Position numbers and translations under genes: made by a program. From Bacillota bacterium (lineage in GTDB: Bacteria; Bacillota_E; JAJZYS01; JAILZS01), in contig JAKASY010000190.1 in NCBI GenBank assembly GCA_021817625.1, positions 1 to 5,332 on the forward strand: a stretch of 5,332 bases of DNA, in the 5' to 3' direction. Position 1 is the first letter of the stretch. Each line of letters begins with the position of its first letter. Of the stretch, positions 1 through 5,332 are shown one piece after another. A model generated the notes under the pieces. The model made no database searches. It was not told the DNA's origin and saw only the letters and a list, made by a program, of their open reading frames with translations.

Positions 1-462
1 CACGATGGACAGAGGTCGAAGTCCGCCCCCTGGCGCGCCGGGCCGCCCGTGTGGGACGCGGCCGGCGCGGCGATGCTGAAGGTCGTGCCCAGCTGGGCCG
101 GCAAGGAGCCCTCGTCCGCGCTCTCGAGGTACTGCTCGAGGCCGCGGGCGATGCCCTGTGCCAGGGAGGCCGCCGCGCCCAGGCCGGCTCCGCCGTTCTT
201 GGCGCCGCCGATGTTGCGGAACTTCTCGATCAGGATCTCCAGGCGCTCCCGCTTGCTTACCGTGCTCTTCAGGCGGAGCAGGACGGAGGCCGCCATGCCC
301 AGCGCCACGGCGTCGGCCATGAGGTCGGAGCCCGCCGTGCCGGCGCTGGCGATGATCTCCACGGGCTCGCCCGTCGATGGGTCCTCGTGCACGTCGAGCG
401 TCAGGTTGCCGAAGTGCGTCGGCACCAGGAAGCACTCGCCGCGCATCCGGCGTGGGCGCCGC
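1..462 (-). other. nrdJ: C-terminal TSCPD-type domain of NrdJ, cut by the window edge
   Basis: The domain begins with the basic run RRPRRMRGECF, followed by VPTHFGNLTLDVHEDPSTGE and EIIASAGTAGSDLMADAVAL. It continues with RERLEILIEKFRNIGGAKNG and a helix, GIARGLEQYL. This pattern (basic start, G-N-L-x-[LV] strand, [ST]AGxAGSD loop and Leu/Ala helices) is that of the TSCPD domain at the end of many class II reductases. The last visible residues, GADFDLCPS, look like the start of the C-terminal cysteine motif that relays electrons from thioredoxin. Its second cysteine and the stop codon lie beyond position 1. Confidence 0.82.
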
Positions 463-3400
463 GCCAGCATGGGCCCGCTGTCGACGACCGGTGCGGGCGC
501 GGCCTGCGCCGTGGCGGCTGCGCCCTCGGCCGCCGGCGCCGCGACCGCCGCCGTGTCCGCCTTCTCGTCCTTCTCGTCGGCGCGGTGCAGGACCTGCGCC
601 TGGCGGGACTGGTCGCGGTAGATGGTGACGCCCTTGCAGCCAAGGTCGTACGCGAGCTCGTACAGGCGCCGGGTGTCCTCGACCGTGTAGTCCGCCGGGG
701 CGTTCGCCGTCTTGGAGATCGACGAGTCCGTCCACTTCTGGACCGCGGCCTGGACGCGCACGTGCTCGTCCGGCGTGAGGTCCATGGCGCCGACGAAGTA
801 CGCGGGGAGCTCCTCGCCGGGATGGGCCTTGAGCCAGTCCTCGGCCACCGTGACGTACTGCTCGTCCATGCCGAGGCGGCTCTGGCGCATGTACTTGAGG
901 GCGTAGAACGGCTCGATGCCAGTTGACGTGCCGACCATCGTGCCGACCGTGTTGTGGCTCACGAAGCCGTTCGCCACGTACGTGTGCCGACCCGGCACCG
1001 TGAGGTCGTACGTCGGCGAGCGGCCGAGCGTCACCCTCTCCACGACCTCGAACACGAACCCCTGCCGCAGCATGCGCGCCACCGTGCTCTGCCTGAGCTG
1101 CGGGTGGCGGGCGGCCAGGGCCCGGACGTAGCCCGCGTTCAGGCCGCCGTCGGCGAGCCTCGTGGCGATCTCCCAGCGCAGCTCGCTGTCCAGGCCTTCG
1201 GAGGCCTCGTACAGGCCGCGGCAGAGAGCCTGGCTCGGGATCCACTCCCCCCACGCGCGGTTGCCCGCGATGGCGCGGCGCAGACCCTCGCGCTTGCGCG
1301 CCCCAACGAAGCCGACGCGGTGGCGGAAGCGCACCGCCTCACGCTCGTTCAGGATGCGCACCTCGTACGCCCGGCCGCGCGCCACCGGGGCACGCAGGGT
1401 CGACAGGATGCCGAGGCCCAGGAGGGCCTGCTGCACCTGGCGGGCGAACGGCGCCGAGGGCACCGCGACGCGCAGGCCAGCGCGGCTGACCGTGCCCTGC
1501 GCCTCGAACAGGCCGCGCAGGAAGGCGGCTGCGGCGCCCGCACCCGAGGCCAGCACCGCCTGCGGCACGGACGGGCCCGTATCCTCCTTGCCAAGGCCAC
1601 TCTCGCGGAAGAAGCGCGCGAGGTGGGCGCCGCCGATGCGCAGGAGCCAGCGCTCCCCGCTCTCCTCGATGGCGACGTGCGGCCGGCCGAACGCCTCGGA
1701 CAGGCGCTTCTGCAGGTGGTCGCGGACGTCCAGGTCCGCGTGCGCCACCGCAAGGCGCAGGCCGCGTGCGGTAAGCTCGCCGGCGCCCATGTAAAAGCCC
1801 AGGACCTCGGCCAGCGCCGCGGTCAACCGCCCCGGCACTTGCTCCGCTCCGGGGCGAAGCTCTGCGCCCTCGCGCTCACCCAGGCCGCCCCGCCTGAGCA
1901 CCGCCAGGTCGCCCGGCTGCACCTCGCCCACCTGCCGCCAGGCGTAGGCGCCGGTGCGGTCGATGACCCGCACCCGGTGCAGGAGCGTGGCCGTGAGCTC
2001 ATAGCCGTGACGCGTCGTGAGCGTGGCCACCGGCTGCTCGCCGTTGATGTAGAAGTGGGAGGCGCGGGCGGCGGTGCCGTCGGTCTCGACGACCGCCTCG
2101 ATCTCCTGCCACTGCTCGCCGGTCGGGTCGCCTAGGCTGGCCATGGCCACCAGGGCGCCATCGGTACGCACGAGCGTGTCGGGCGCGACACAGCCGGTGG
2201 GCGCCTGGGTGAGGAGGGTGACGTTTCGCATCCCCTGGCTGCGCACGCGCTCGCGGATGTCGTCGGGCATGCCCTGCATGAAGCCGCTCTGCAGGAACTT
2301 CTCCGCCTCGAAGAACGGGAACGACCCCTTCTCCTGCCCGAGCTCCGCGGATGCCACATACGACTCGTGCGCGATGAACGCGTAGATCCTGTCGATCAGG
2401 TCCACGGCCTCCGGCGAGCCGTAGCGCAGGCCGAGCCGGATCAGGACCTCGCCCAGCCCCATCGTCCCAAGGCCGAGGCGCCGCTCACCCTTCTGCGTGG
2501 CCGCGTTCTCCTCGAAGTAGTAGGGCGTCGTGTCCACCACGTTGTCGAGGAAGCGCACGGAGTCGCGCACCGTGCGGCCGAGGCCATCCCAGTCGAGCTC
2601 GCCGTCCGCGACGAAGGCGTTCAGGTTGACGTGGCCGAGGCAGCACACGCCCCAGGCGGGCAGCGGCTGCTCCGCGCAGTTGTGCACCACGAAGCCGCCC
2701 GCCACGAACGAGTGGCTCTGCGGCTCGGTGAGGTCGTACACGGCCTCCTCGCCGTCCGGCACCACGCACTCAACGTGGGCGACATGGCGCTCGGGCGTGA
2801 GCGGGTGGCGCCGAAGCTCGGCCGCTGCGTCGGCCAGCGCGTCACGCCGGCTGGCGCTGAGGGCGCCGACCGCTGCGGCGAAGCGCAGGAGCCCCTCGCG
2901 CTCCACGCTCAGGAGCGCCGGCACCTGGTCGTCCAGCTCCCGCCCCTTGGCCGTGCGCAGGCGCGACACCATGCCCATGTTGAGGAGGATCTGCTGCACG
3001 CCGCGCAGGAGTCCGGCCGGGCCGCGCGCGGTGAGCGTCGGGCGGCCGCGGGCGGTCGTCAGGTAGCCCGCCGCCTCGAACAGGGCCTGCAGGTAGCCGC
3101 GCTGCATCGCCTCGCTGCCGCGCGCGACGGCGTCGGGCACGGCAGGCGAGGCGGCGCCCATGCCGTAGGCGAACGCGATCTCGCCCAGCTGGTGGGCGAC
3201 CATGGAGCCGCGGCTCTTGCGCAGGGCCACGGCGCTGTCGCCGCGCTCCGTGGCGGCCCCGCTCAGACGGCGCACGGAGGCGGCGAGGAGGGGCTCGAGC
3301 TCCGCCTGCCGCTCGGGCGCGAAGGAGACGCGCAGGGTGTCCCCGCGCCGGCGCGCGGTGACGGACATGTAGCCGAGCACTCGGCCCAGGTCCTCGCTCC

Positions 3401-5332
3401 CCTCGCTGCCGAAGCCGCCGGGGTGGTCGAGGATGCGCACCGGCTCGCCCCGCCGCAGGTCCTTGGCCTCCACCCAGCCGCGCTCGTCGGAGTATAGGCG
3501 GTGGTCGCCGGTCACCCGAACGGCGTAGCCTTCGCGCGTGACCACGCGGACCACCGGCTTCAGGCCCGTGAGGAAGACGGGCGATGCGGTCTCGGTGCGG
3601 CCGACGCGCATGCGCCCGTCCACGACAGCCTCGACCGGCGTGTGGGCCAGGAACAGCTCGTCCGCGCGCCGCAGGCCGTCGGCCGTGTAGACCAGGGTGT
3701 CGCCGGTGACGCAGGGGTTCGTCGCGATCAGGGGGTGGAAGTACCACGAGTTCGACTGCTTGTTCGAGCGCTCGAGGAAGGCGATGCCCGGCTCGGCGCT
3801 TGCCCAGGCGCTCTCCGTGAGGCGCTGCCAGATCTCGCGCGCCGGCCGGCGATCGTAGGTGACCACGGCCTTGCCGGTCGCGAGCCAGGCGTCAAGGTCG
3901 CCGGTCCAAACCTGGTCGTACTCGGGGTCGTCCGTGTCCGGGAACCGAAGCTCCCACTCCCCGTCGTTCTTCACGGCCTGCATGAAGCTGTCCGACACGC
4001 ATACGGAGATATTGGCGTTCTCCACCATTCCCGGCGTGCGCTTGGCGTCAATGAATCGTAAGAGATCCGGATGCCAGTCGTAAAGCATGAGCATAAGAGC
4101 TCCGCGCCTCGACCCACCCTGCTCGACGAGTCCCGTCGCACGGGAATACAGGTCCATCCACGAAACAGCGCCACTCGATCGGCCATTTACGCCACGGACG
4201 ATGGCACGTCTTGGGCGCAAAGAGGACACATTAATGCCCACGCCGCCGCCCCGAGACATGATTTCGATCATTTGGCCGAGCGTTTCGATGATTCCGCCGC
4301 GTGAGTCCTTGGGGCTCGGCACCACGTAGCACTGCCGGGTCAGGTATCCCTGGCCCACCACCATCGTGTGCGTCTCAGGCTCGTTGCAGCAGAACACTTC
4401 CTCGACGCGGTCGGTCTCCTCCACGCCGACCACGAGGACGGTCGCCGCGCGCTTGGCCCGAGCCACGAAGCGCTCACGGTGTCTGGAAAGAAGAAGATCC
4501 TCAGGGCTGACGGACGTCTGATAGAGGCCAAGGGCACAGCAGGGGGCGTACGAGGGCCCGAAGTTGCTGACCTGGCGGATCTCGCGGATGACGGAGGCCA
4601 CGAACCCGGCCTCAGACGCGTGACGCCGCACCGCATCGAGCACCGCGGCGTCCGTCTGCGTAAGCGCGACGGCACCGCGGGTGTCCACTGACCCGTCCGC
4701 CGCCAGGAGGCCGACGATGAATCCACGCCAATACGAGGCCCCCGCGCGCTCCTCCGGGAGCTCCTTCCACTCCCGCGGCAGGCCGTACACTCGTACGCTT
4801 CGGGCCTTCTCCGCGACGCTCTGGGCGTACGGTGCCACCCACGGTAGAAGCTCCCTGCTGCCATCGGTCAGCTCGATGAAAGACTTGCCATGCCTAGCCA
4901 TGCGCGAGCCGTCGCCGAAGACGATGCCGTGCGCGACCCCCATCGGGTCCATCTCAGGCTTGGCCGGCGGCTGAATGGGAATGTGCCGGCCCTCGAGGTC
5001 CAGCGTCGTCACGACTTCGGTGCCGCCCTTGGGCAAGGTCGCGATCCACTCGTGTCCGGCCGTCGCGTAGATCGCGTCGCCGTTCTCGAGCAGAACCTCA
5101 TACAGGCGTTGCACACCATACGATCCAAAGACTGCGGTACGGTAGACCCCGCCCTGCGTCAGGATCTCCACCGGACCGCTCAGCGTTCCGATCGGCTTCA
5201 GGCCGTCCCGCGTGTGCACCGGCGTCTCGGCGGACACGCAGTTGTAGAGCGTTAGATTGCCCGCCCCGGCACCCGCCAGGATGCGGCCGCCGGGCACGAA
5301 CTTCCAACCGGAGAGAGCCTCGAAGAAGCGCT
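1..5332 (-). CDS. nrdJ: Class II (B12-dependent) ribonucleotide reductase alpha chain with three inteins, partial at both ends
   Basis: This is a continuous reading frame of 1776 codons (5330 down to 3) with no stop; start and stop codons lie outside. After splicing, 714 residues of host protein remain in the window. They form a ribonucleotide reductase catalytic chain, which reduces ribonucleotides to deoxyribonucleotides by radical chemistry in the cytoplasm. Visible family signatures, in order, are FVPGGRILAGAG, NCYVVPSP (redox Cys), GGGVGINVSSLRP, GGSRRGALMLMLYDWHPDLL, TNPCAEQPLP (radical Cys and general-base Glu), GLGTMGLGEVL, QAPTGTVGTMVGTSTGIEP, QKWTDSSISKT and GCKGVTIYRDQSR. Class II is inferred from the NrdJ-like motifs, the single-chain C-terminal TSCPD-type domain and the C134/C322/C333-like cysteine spacing of Thermotoga NrdJ (numbers from memory). 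The N-terminal region, perhaps the first hundred or more residues, is missing. The inteins are C1 5238-5240 to Q 4332-4334, C1 3711-3713 to N 2679-2681, and C1 2190-2192 to N 951-953. A class I NrdA-type chain is unlikely but cannot be fully excluded without the ends. Confidence 0.96.
463..602 (-). other. nrdJ: Low-complexity Ala/Pro/Glu linker in NrdJ
   Basis: A stretch of about 46 residues starts with the charged run HRADEKDEKADT and continues as an alanine- and proline-rich run (TAAVAAPAAEGAAATAQAAP). It joins the catalytic core to the C-terminal domain. No motif or catalytic residue is visible. Flexible linkers at this place are expected in NrdJ, where the C-terminal tail must reach the active site to deliver reducing equivalents. 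That role is inferred here. Confidence 0.75.
603..950 (-). other. nrdJ: NrdJ extein part 4a: C-terminal part of the catalytic barrel
   Basis: The segment begins TVGTMVGTSTGIEPFY, the loop that in reductases lies by the substrate phosphate and continues into the barrel. It continues with LKYMRQSRLGMDEQYVTVAE, then RVQAAVQKWTDSSISKT, and closes with RRLYELAYDLGCKGVTIY and RDQSRQ. The last two motifs are typical of the end of the NrdJ catalytic core. The Thr at 948-950 is the +1 residue for intein 3 splicing. Codons here end almost exclusively in G or C. Confidence 0.92.
951..2192 (-). mobile_element. Intein 3, 414 aa, in the APTG/T loop; endonuclease degenerate
   Basis: This in-frame intein lies between host QAPTG and TVGTMVGTSTGIEP. 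Block A is C1-VAPDTLVRTDGALVAMASL. Block B is GYELTATLLHRVRV with TxxH at residues 69-72 (1977-1988). Block F and the end are YDLTVPGRHTYVANGFVSHN (residues 395-414), with His-Asn directly before Thr+1 (948-950). The LAGLIDADG motifs read LGFYMGAGEL (Ala at residue 137 where Asp is expected) and FLRGLFEAQG (Gln at residue 232 where Asp is expected). The endonuclease is therefore predicted inactive while splicing residues are intact. It is the longest of the three because a helical segment follows the block E-like FRHRVGFVGARK and extends to the canonical GFVFEVVERV strand before block F. Confidence 0.93.
1488..1805 (-). other. Degenerate LAGLIDADG endonuclease remnant in intein 3
   Basis: The first helix VLGFYMGAGEL spans 1773-1805, and the second, FLRGLFEAQGTV, spans 1488-1523. 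Packing glycines and hydrophobic residues are well preserved, so the two motifs are easy to recognise. The aspartates of the G-D-G and A-D-G consensus are replaced by Ala and Gln. A domain with both acids lost should fold but not cut DNA. The pattern matches intein 2, where both acids are also lost, but the replacements differ. Confidence 0.75.
2193..2678 (-). other. nrdJ: NrdJ extein part 3 (thiyl-radical Cys to APTG)
   Basis: These 162 host residues run from CAEQPLPAWGVCCLGHVNLN to TLLTQAPTG. The opening Cys (2676-2678) is the predicted thiyl-radical cysteine that takes hydrogen from the substrate ribose. The Glu two residues on (2670-2672) is the predicted general base. The Cys eleven residues on (2643-2645) matches the second redox cysteine by spacing. 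It is followed at once by another Cys (2640-2642), giving GVCC, which may be a local variation. The motif is NPCAE rather than the more common NPCGE. Further signatures are RFLDNVVDTTPYYFEENA, RRLGLGTMGLGEVLIRLGL and GMRNVTLLTQAPTG. All catalytic residues in this stretch are present, so the gene looks functional. Confidence 0.93.
2679..3713 (-). mobile_element. Intein 2, 345 aa, inserted before the thiyl-radical cysteine; endonuclease degenerate
   Basis: This in-frame intein splits NP/C of the NPCxE active-site motif. Block A is C1-VTGDTLVYTADGLRRADE. Block B is GYAVRVTGDHRLY with TxxH at residues 68-71 (3501-3512). Block F and the end are YDLTEPQSHSFVAGGFVVHN (residues 326-345), with canonical penultimate His and terminal Asn before Cys+1, so all splicing residues are present. 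The central domain has the shape of a LAGLIDADG endonuclease, but both catalytic acids are gone. The first motif reads RVLGYMSVTA (3354-3383), and the second reads GYLQALFEAAG (3066-3098) with Ala in place of Asp. The DNA is very GC-rich (sampled lines 82-87%), and only about 3% of codons end in A or T. It probably still splices but can no longer home. Confidence 0.93.
3066..3383 (-). other. Degenerate LAGLIDADG endonuclease remnant in intein 2
   Basis: The two helices are recognisable by position and by GY/GF-type packing residues (LGYM at 3366-3377 and GYLQALF at 3078-3098). The metal-binding acids expected near LGYMSV and in FEAAG are absent. The spacing between the motifs is about 93 residues, comparable with the active family, so the domain decayed by substitution rather than large deletion. 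It stays in frame because the splicing blocks on both sides must remain joined. Confidence 0.72.
3714..4331 (-). other. nrdJ: NrdJ extein part 2 (first redox Cys to the NP of NPCxE)
   Basis: These 206 host residues run from CYVVPSPKDSRGGIIETLGQ to FHPLIATNP. The opening Cys (4329-4331) corresponds to the first member of the redox pair that re-reduces the active site (C134 in Thermotoga NrdJ, from memory). It is also the +1 nucleophile for splicing of intein 1. Family signatures are SRGGGVGINVSSLRPR, VNGRSSGAVSWMDLYSRATG, EQGGSRRGALMLMLYDWHPD and NANISVCVSDSFM. The segment forms the first half of the catalytic barrel. Its first 100 codons (4320-4021) are unusual in composition: about one third end in A or T by hand count, against roughly 0-10% further downstream. 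The composition returns to the GC-rich norm by about 3980. Confidence 0.92.
4332..5240 (-). mobile_element. Intein 1, 303 aa, with intact-looking LAGLIDADG endonuclease and atypical Arg-Gln C-terminus
   Basis: This in-frame protein-splicing element lies between host residues LTLYN and CYVVPSP. Block A is C1-VSAETPV followed by GLKPIGTL. Block B is GDAIYATAGHEW with the TxxH motif at residues 60-63 (5052-5063). Two LAGLIDADG-type motifs follow, GIVFGDGS (residues 105-112) and GFIVGLLAADG (residues 173-183). Each keeps its acidic residue, so a functional homing endonuclease is plausible. Block F is EVFCCNEPETHTMVVGQGYL. The last two residues are Arg-Gln instead of His-Asn, directly before host Cys+1. 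Gln-terminated inteins are known and can splice (the Chilo iridescent virus ribonucleotide reductase intein, from memory), so splicing is likely although this end is unusual. The intein contains five cysteines, including two vicinal pairs (4536-4541 and 4386-4391). About 16% of codons end in A or T by hand count, more than in the other two inteins. Confidence 0.93.
4692..4928 (-). other. LAGLIDADG (dodecapeptide) homing endonuclease core of intein 1
   Basis: This marks the core between the two LAGLIDADG helices; the full domain extends further to lower coordinates. The first helix contains GIVFGDGS (4905-4928) with Asp at 4911-4913. The second contains GFIVGLLAADG (4692-4724) with Asp at 4695-4697. 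In the family these two acids bind the metal ions that cut the intein-free allele. Both are present here, unlike in the two downstream inteins. The expected target is the intein-less nrdJ sequence around LTLYN/CYVVPSP. The downstream run ALTQTDAAVLDAVRRHASEA fits the DNA-binding and helical part of such enzymes. Activity is inferred from conserved residues only. Confidence 0.82.
5241..5332 (-). other. nrdJ: NrdJ extein part 1 (up to the first redox cysteine)
   Basis: The segment holds 30 complete codons: a helix beginning RFFEALSGWKF, then the reductase signature VPGGRILAGAGAG, ending LTLYN at the intein 1 junction. In the family this segment leads into the first strand of the ten-stranded alpha/beta barrel, and the next host residue is the redox-active cysteine. 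The start codon and N-terminal domain lie beyond the window edge, so the presence of an N-terminal ATP-cone or other regulatory domain cannot be judged here. Confidence 0.9.

Follow-up and report, generated by a model that had tools for sequence, protein, structure and literature searches.

How did three inteins come to lie in one ribonucleotide reductase gene, and by which chemistry would each of them leave its product? The question is raised by a stretch of 5,332 nucleotides from a Bacillota bacterium, here called the window, that is filled by a single minus-strand reading frame. Most probably, this frame is the larger part of an NrdJ gene, the product of which gains activity only once three inteins have excised themselves: an old, vertically inherited intein 2 and a later intein 3, both of class 1 and with a dead LAGLIDADG endonuclease (HEN), and an intein 1 that combines Cys1 with the triplet Trp B:12, Cys F:4 and Thr G:5 (WCT) and that came in by homing together with neighbouring host DNA. 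The frame, the intein boundaries, the conserved residues, the empty sites, the tree positions and the foreign composition on which this answer is built are supported by the sequence itself.

A reductase in four pieces

The frame (3..5330, minus strand; both ends cut by the window) comprises 1776 codons without a stop, while each of the other five frames contains 8 to 47 stops. Its assignment to NrdJ comes from Pfam, TIGRFAM and structure alignment: the host part matches the barrel domain PF02867 (E 7.5e-103) and NrdJ_Z TIGR02504 (502 bits at a cut-off of 400), and the joined product of 714 residues aligns with the NrdJ of T. maritima (1xje; E 8.4e-79). Inteins make up 1062 of the 1776 residues (59.8%), at residues 31-333 (intein 1, 303 aa), 540-884 (intein 2, 345 aa) and 1047-1460 (intein 3, 414 aa), and the remaining 714 aa are host (extein) sequence. 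The stop-free frame, the reductase as host, the sizes of three complete inteins and an intein share of about 60% had already been described in the first-pass annotation, and all of them were reproduced. The host protein is contiguous once spliced, as the 714-residue product aligns with NrdJ without gaps at the junctions, and as two of the three sites are naturally unbroken in the nearest relative for which DNA is available (L010, Bacillota bacterium isolate HOT.CON.150; extein identity 85%), which is uninterrupted at sites 1 and 3 and carries an intein at site 2. A scan of the window for tRNA and for tandem repeats reported none.

Frame analysis places the extein pieces, all on the minus strand, at 5241..5330 (piece 1, 30 aa), 3714..4331 (piece 2, 206 aa), 2193..2678 (piece 3, 162 aa) and 3..950 (piece 4, 316 aa within the window, with its end beyond it). 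Extein residues C31, C237 and C248 align with C134, C322 and C333 of the T. maritima enzyme. Intein 1 is inserted immediately N-terminal to the C134-equivalent Cys, which is the first residue of piece 2, and intein 2 immediately N-terminal to the C322-equivalent Cys, which is the first residue of piece 3, while intein 3 lies within the APTG-T loop. C134 and C322, to which the +1 Cys of inteins 1 and 2 align, we take to be catalytic, as we do C333. As these +1 residues are the enzyme's own Cys, the reductase would be inactive before splicing.

Inteins 2 and 3: class 1 inteins with decayed endonucleases

Intein 2 (2679..3713, minus strand, 345 aa, HN|C) and intein 3 (951..2192, minus strand, 414 aa, HN|T) both have the full set of class 1 residues, namely Cys1, Thr B:7, His B:10, Asp F:4, a terminal HN and a +1 nucleophile, but neither has the two catalytic Asp residues of an active LAGLIDADG HEN. 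According to the family alignments, the Asp positions are occupied by T119 (3357-3359) and A215 (3069-3071) in intein 2 and by A137 (1782-1784) and Q232 (1497-1499) in intein 3, all on the minus strand; that these are the positions that count as catalytic in the two families is our assumption. In the intein 2 family (141 rows), Asp is retained in 123 at each motif, where the window has Thr and Ala. Of the 73 rows of the intein 3 family, with the window among them, 70 and 67 have Asp at the two motifs, and Ala and Gln occur at these positions in the window only; Thr B:7, His B:10, Asp F:4, HN and the +1 Thr are invariant.

The extein tree groups the window with P0001 (SH-aLRT 93), then with P0214 and L010 (99), and these four form with P0006, P0215 and P0216 a seven-member host clade (SH-aLRT 100). 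Intein 2 is present in all seven members, and the first LAGLIDADG motif is gone from all of them, while the Asp of the second motif is retained in P0006 alone, so that not every copy has lost both. Identity to the intein 2 of the window is 77-79% in P0001, P0214 and L010 (extein 84-86%) and 50-54% in P0215, P0216 and P0006 (extein 77-79%), and intein identity thus tracks extein identity, as predicted by vertical descent. Between the window and L010, dN of intein 2 is 0.175 in the endonuclease part and 0.124 and 0.106 in the N-terminal and C-terminal splicing parts, respectively, with the frame intact. Intein 3 is present in only one of the seven members, the window. Intein 2 may well be an old passenger that was inherited vertically, and intein 3 a later arrival in the lineage of the window; with their splicing residues intact, both would leave by the class 1 route.

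The site of intein 2 (ext236; e.g. P0002, P0011, P0019) holds inteins with a variety of endings. Its 141 inteins end with HN (113), HQ (13), FD (5) or GQ (3), more rarely with RG, RN and AN (2 each) or LD (1), and Asp- and Gly-ended inteins thus occur ahead of the C322-equivalent Cys.

Intein 1 unites Cys1, the class 3 triplet and a terminal Gln

Block and family analysis delimits intein 1 (4332..5240, minus strand, 303 aa), which has a LAGLIDADG domain and a +1 Cys. Its blocks are B TAGHEW, F EVFCC and G LTRQ|C, the last with Thr G:5, Arg G:6 and Gln G:7. The family alignment places, all on the minus strand, Cys1 at 5238..5240, Trp B:12 (residue 65) at 5046..5048, Cys F:4 (residue 284) at 4389..4391, Thr G:5 (residue 301) at 4338..4340, the C-terminal Gln G:7 at 4332..4334, and the first and second LAGLIDADG Asp, D110 and D182, at 4911..4913 and 4695..4697. 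In the first-pass annotation, each intein had been credited with a complete set of blocks and the three with mixed states of decay. The sets are indeed complete, except that block G of intein 1 does not end with His-Asn, and the states of decay differ as described, since both HEN Asp are kept in intein 1 and replaced in inteins 2 and 3. Cutting by the endonuclease of intein 1 is a prediction.

The residues of intein 1 do not fit into a single class. Trp B:12, Cys F:4 and Thr G:5 are markers of class 3, whose members lack an N-terminal nucleophile (PMC3196547, PMC5222942; accessible parts), and filing of intein 1 under class 3 was rejected because Cys1 is present at its N-terminus. Its +1 residue is Cys, whereas class 3 inteins usually have Ser or Thr there, Bvi IcmO being the known exception in the accessible part of PMC5222942. 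A canonical HN intein was rejected as well, as intein 1 ends with Arg-Gln|Cys, i.e. with Gln G:7 followed by the nucleophile Cys+1, and carries WCT. An AlphaFold2 model (16 sequences) has one confident fold (pLDDT 91.3) that matches the full-length LAGLIDADG inteins PI-PfuI and PI-SceI as well as mini-inteins; its splicing part resembles mini-inteins of class 1 and of class 3 to about the same degree, and the fold thus does not discriminate between the classes.

The same combination characterizes a large family. In a search space of 331 proteins and 80 viral loci (confirmed of 104), 196 domain matches were obtained, 188 of them with readable ends and 167 of these at >=150 bits; 8 of the 196 were excluded as they have no readable T-x-Q/N end, other last residues being uncountable, and 21 of the 188 as they fall below 150 bits. 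Among the matches listed, 159 of the 167 have Cys1, eight have Pro1, 58 have Gln G:7, and 160 have WCT, a high rate that is partly due to selection, as the profile was built from 75 of 76 members chosen for Cys F:4 and as one of the two viral-scan patterns itself requires Cys F:4. Cys1 and Trp B:12 were not selection criteria in this set. A looser set of 110 rows that includes paralogous class 1 inteins has Trp B:12 in 85, Cys F:4 in 91 and Thr G:5 in 82; only rows with an alignment that starts at the first column of the profile were admitted, a condition that excludes Pro1 rows, and the 110/110 for Cys1 in this set is therefore no rate.

The family is shared with viruses: its tree has 159 distinct rows, and 69 of these are viral contigs. 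The 80 viral loci end with Asn in 63 cases and with Gln in 13, and four are unreadable. Further hosts are a phage ribonucleoside-triphosphate reductase (Thermobifida phage P318) and a protein named exonuclease V alpha (P0037). In two viral contigs from IMG/VR (L113, L114), an intein of this family that ends with TKQ|C has flanks like those of NrdJ site 1, and such viruses could be a transfer vehicle.

The C-terminal Gln is found in all eight members of the clade to which the intein 1 of the window belongs. At least 14 Gln/Asn changes are needed on the 159-row tree (for the Gln group, starred branches make 5 unavoidable), and Gln is thus a recurrent and lasting state; this tree and one of 76 rows were calculated by a quick method. 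The Gln goes with mostly Gly, Lys, Ser or Arg in place of His at G:6. Four members at the same NrdJ site (P0065, P0066, P0069, P0070) are mini-inteins of 142-151 aa without HEN, all of which retain Cys1 and the residues W, C and T, and three of which end with Gln. These mini-inteins are possible splicing tools.

Is the triplet then used at all? The chances are about even that intein 1 follows plain class 1 chemistry via Cys1, and that the triplet has a structural role or is simply ancestral. The presence of Cys1 in 159 of the 167 members among the matches listed agrees with this, as does the fact that, among solved structures, the top matches of the family profiles are DnaE inteins of class 1, with DnaB inteins of class 3 absent from the matches. 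Moreover, Cys ranks second among the residues found at F:4 across inteins generally (PMC4031507, accessible part), and Cys+1 and TxxH, which intein 1 both has, are atypical for class 3 as far as PMC5222942 and PMC12245125 are accessible. On the other hand, the complete triplet is present in 160 of 167 members, and the Pro1 inteins of the same family cannot use Cys1.

These Pro1 inteins (P0068, P0077, P0083, P0087, L166, L172, L176, L184) have kept WCT and end with Asn, followed by Cys. They form one clade (bootstrap/SH-aLRT 100/93) that is nested among Cys1 rows, and their neighbours, L189 (97/88) and P0089 with L191 (100/96), have Cys1 and the triplet; the wider group of 17 rows around the clade has a weaker support of 83/82. 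The placement was repeated with bootstraps on 44 chosen rows, after six rows, most of them long, had been barred and the rest thinned; the tree covers members of the intein 1 family. A profile of six of the eight Pro1 inteins gave weak matches to class 1 DnaE inteins and to no class 3 structure, and speaks neither for nor against a kinship with DnaB-type class 3 inteins. With their Cys+1 and TxxH, the Pro1 inteins are unlike the usual class 3 inteins (PMC5222942, PMC12245125; accessible parts).

The wide occurrence of Cys1 suggests that it is the ancestral state; in that case, the class 3 signature may have arisen here by a loss of Cys1 on a WCT background. A more tentative extension, which we consider possible but rather doubtful, is that the intein 1 family is a standing reservoir for class 3, in which Cys1 is already dispensable, so that its loss, seen once with Pro1, would give a working class 3 intein in a single step and independently of the DnaB-type clade, with the release by Gln as a second stable variation. 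A Cys1+WCT family with an inner clade devoid of Cys1 makes the question of the origin of class 3 accessible to point-mutant testing.

How ordinary is a three-intein reductase?

The first-pass annotation had called three full-size inteins in one NrdJ uncommon. This did not hold: three or more inserts occur in at least 28 of 212 well-aligned relatives, and the rarity of three-intein NrdJ was therefore rejected. The relatives, at least 330, came from three protein searches, two of which contributed the best 120 of 519 and the best 120 of 299, and 118 of 331 proteins were dropped before counting due to a short or weak extein alignment. As the set was found via intein homology and a length window, it favours long intein-bearing proteins, and the counts reflect abundance and not frequency. 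The strict count covers five known sites with Cys within the first three letters, the gene start before extein 1 being outside the count; by this measure, 29 of 213 proteins among the matches listed (window included) have three or more inserts at the five recurrent sites, and five have four. A looser count arrives at 61 of 213 (window included) with at least three inserts of >=100 aa, some of which, at odd positions, are alignment artefacts. Inserts at the very three sites of the window are found in nine of the 213 proteins listed, i.e. the window and eight relatives. A scan with the host sequence left 80 genome loci, of which 68 are free of inserts of >=90 aa; inserts at all three sites of the window occur in none of the 80.

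Reductases with even more inserts exist. P0103 and P0097, with 2741 and 2713 aa, have five and six inserts by the loose count, in which the alignment may have split some, and four and three by the strict count. The closely related P0001 has a 160-aa mini-intein at a fourth site (extein position 103) that is empty in the window.

Multi-intein class II reductases such as Pyrococcus abyssi RIR1 are known, and inteins with mixed class 1/class 3 motifs (Catera Gp206, JS614 TOPRIM, Tfu2914) were reportedly described by Tori and Perler in 2011, so that the mixed Cys1+WCT signature itself is probably already known. It is thus a real possibility, though one that we hold below even, that the whole locus offers no novelty beyond that of any multi-intein reductase. 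The abundance of relatives with three or more inserts speaks for this, and so does a paper of 2009, listed by title among the references of PMC5050341, that deals with the three inteins of the P. abyssi RNR. What does not fit is the Gln-rich, reductase-borne Cys1+WCT family with its Pro1 offshoot, for which no description was met in the literature searched, a scope that excludes most subscription papers; the family is absent from the accessible parts of PMC3196547, PMC4031507, PMC7664689, PMC5222942, PMC5050341, PMC12245125, PMC3653736, PMC8772380 and PMC7891396. In the last of these, as far as its accessible text goes, 1701 class 3 inteins were counted by a definition that demands absence of the N-terminal Cys together with Cys F:4, and Cys1+WCT inteins consequently fall outside. 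What is new in the locus is chiefly intein 1 and its candidate homing footprint.

The arrival of intein 1

Within the host clade, intein 1 is present in three of seven members, namely the window, P0001 and P0006, and its relationships are not those of the exteins. The intein 1 of P0006 clusters with that of the distant P0003 (support 97), and its identity to the copy of the window is 57% at an extein identity of 79%, as compared to 69% for the distant P0002 at an extein identity of 59%. This discordance indicates transfer between lineages. Since the sister P0001 also bears intein 1, the gain may predate the lineage of the window. Within the eight-member clade of this intein, both HEN Asp are retained only in the window and in P0002. 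Judged by these residues and trees, three stages of the homing cycle coexist in one gene: intein 2 is old, intein 3 is HEN-decayed, and intein 1 has kept both Asp.

The DNA around intein 1 is likewise distinct. A block of low GC3 (4002..5330, minus strand) covers extein 1 and intein 1 and runs on for about 110 codons into the 3' extein, with its right edge at about codon 443 and its left edge beyond the window. The best single change-point of GC3 is codon 443 (delta lnL 40.5, maximum of 9.2 in 300 permutations), with support extending roughly over 427-482. Relative to the remaining extein and stratified by amino acid, the tract of codons 334-443 has a lowered GC3 (odds ratio 0.088, p 2e-18), and so have intein 1 (odds ratio 0.23, p 4e-9) and codons 1-30 (odds ratio 0.20, p 0.011), in Fisher tests that treat codons as independent; intein 2 (p 0.88) and intein 3 (p 0.14) show no such lowering. 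Synonymous codons are identical between the window and L010 in 36 of 98 cases in the tract and in 291 of 440 downstream (p 1.6e-7), and pS is 0.75 in the tract, which is saturated, versus 0.42 downstream, at a protein identity of 96% in the tract. A GC3 dip as a general trait of this gene region was rejected, as all six pairs that include the window show the drop, and as it reaches significance in none of 15 pairs of other relatives; of the 12 names in this test, L084, L085, L087, L088 and L089 were dropped due to lack of usable coverage.

We read the block and its saturated synonymous divergence as a candidate co-conversion with intein 1 during homing repair, i.e. homing of the intein would have replaced adjacent host DNA as well. 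Two observations weigh against this reading: the tract protein is nearest to the host clade of the window itself, so that any donor must have been a near relative, and GC3 differs between intein 1 (0.84) and the tract (0.68). In the donor searches, intein 1 matched none of 398 genomes of the phylum of L010 at E 1e-10, a search run without positive control; a plasmid search gave one weak relative, and a phage search two, the best being that of Thermobifida phage P318 at 41%. It is possible, if somewhat doubtful, that the block is instead an assembly chimera of two related genomes or the result of a recombination unrelated to homing: the left edge lies beyond the window, no candidate donor was found, the closeness of the tract protein to its own clade would suit such an origin, and a chimera would leave the same picture. 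However, the block encloses just the one intein with intact HEN Asp, the site of which is empty in L010, and a chimera would presumably require a long identical stretch in a region where synonymous identity is low. The gene offers three homing-cycle stages side by side, together with a measurable candidate conversion tract.

Proposed splicing and comparison with known systems

We infer that all three inteins splice. Translation would yield a single precursor, in which three HINT domains fold and then excise themselves. In case of intein 1, splicing would start with acyl transfer to Cys1 and/or Cys F:4, the acyl group would then pass to Cys+1, and release would be achieved by cyclisation of Gln instead of Asn, followed by the S-N shift. 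That Gln-ended inteins can splice and that His G:6 is dispensable for splicing in some inteins is described in the accessible part of PMC4031507. It is very improbable that intein 1, with Gln for Asn and Arg for His, is a decayed and poorly splicing intein. In favour of decay, inteins usually have His at G:6 and Asn at G:7, and two Pol II inteins that end with Gln splice slowly (PMC4031507, accessible part). Against it, replacement of the native Gln by Asn makes splicing of the CIV RNR intein worse (same source), and Gln ends all eight inteins of the clade, 58 of 167 family members and three of the four HEN-less forms, in an enzyme that is probably essential.

In comparison with multi-intein class II RNRs (P. 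abyssi RIR1 and the NrdJ relatives), the locus is alike in having several inteins at recurrent NrdJ sites, two of them directly ahead of the counterparts of C134 and C322 in 1xje, and unlike in its combination of sites, its states of decay and the mixed class signature of intein 1. With the class 3 inteins MP-Be DnaB, Dra Snf2, Msm/Mch DnaB-1 and AceL NrdHF, intein 1 shares Trp B:12, Cys F:4, Thr G:5 and the HINT fold, but it differs from them in Cys1, Thr B:7, Cys+1 and the C-terminal Gln. The mixed inteins that Tori and Perler are said to have described in 2011 reportedly resemble it in uniting WCT with an N-terminal nucleophile. They are also alike in their hosts, since the intein 1 family extends to the Thermobifida phage reductase and to proteins with Pfam accessions that we take to be of primase type; we know of no Gln ending for Catera Gp206, JS614 TOPRIM or Tfu2914. 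Finally, the Gln-terminal inteins CIV RNR and those of the Pol II of P. abyssi and M. marisnigri share the Gln at G:7 with intein 1, and CIV RNR is, like intein 1, a reductase intein (PMC4031507, accessible part). Unlike in these inteins, the Gln of the intein 1 family is persistent in a large family, and G:6 is mostly Gly, Lys, Ser or Arg.
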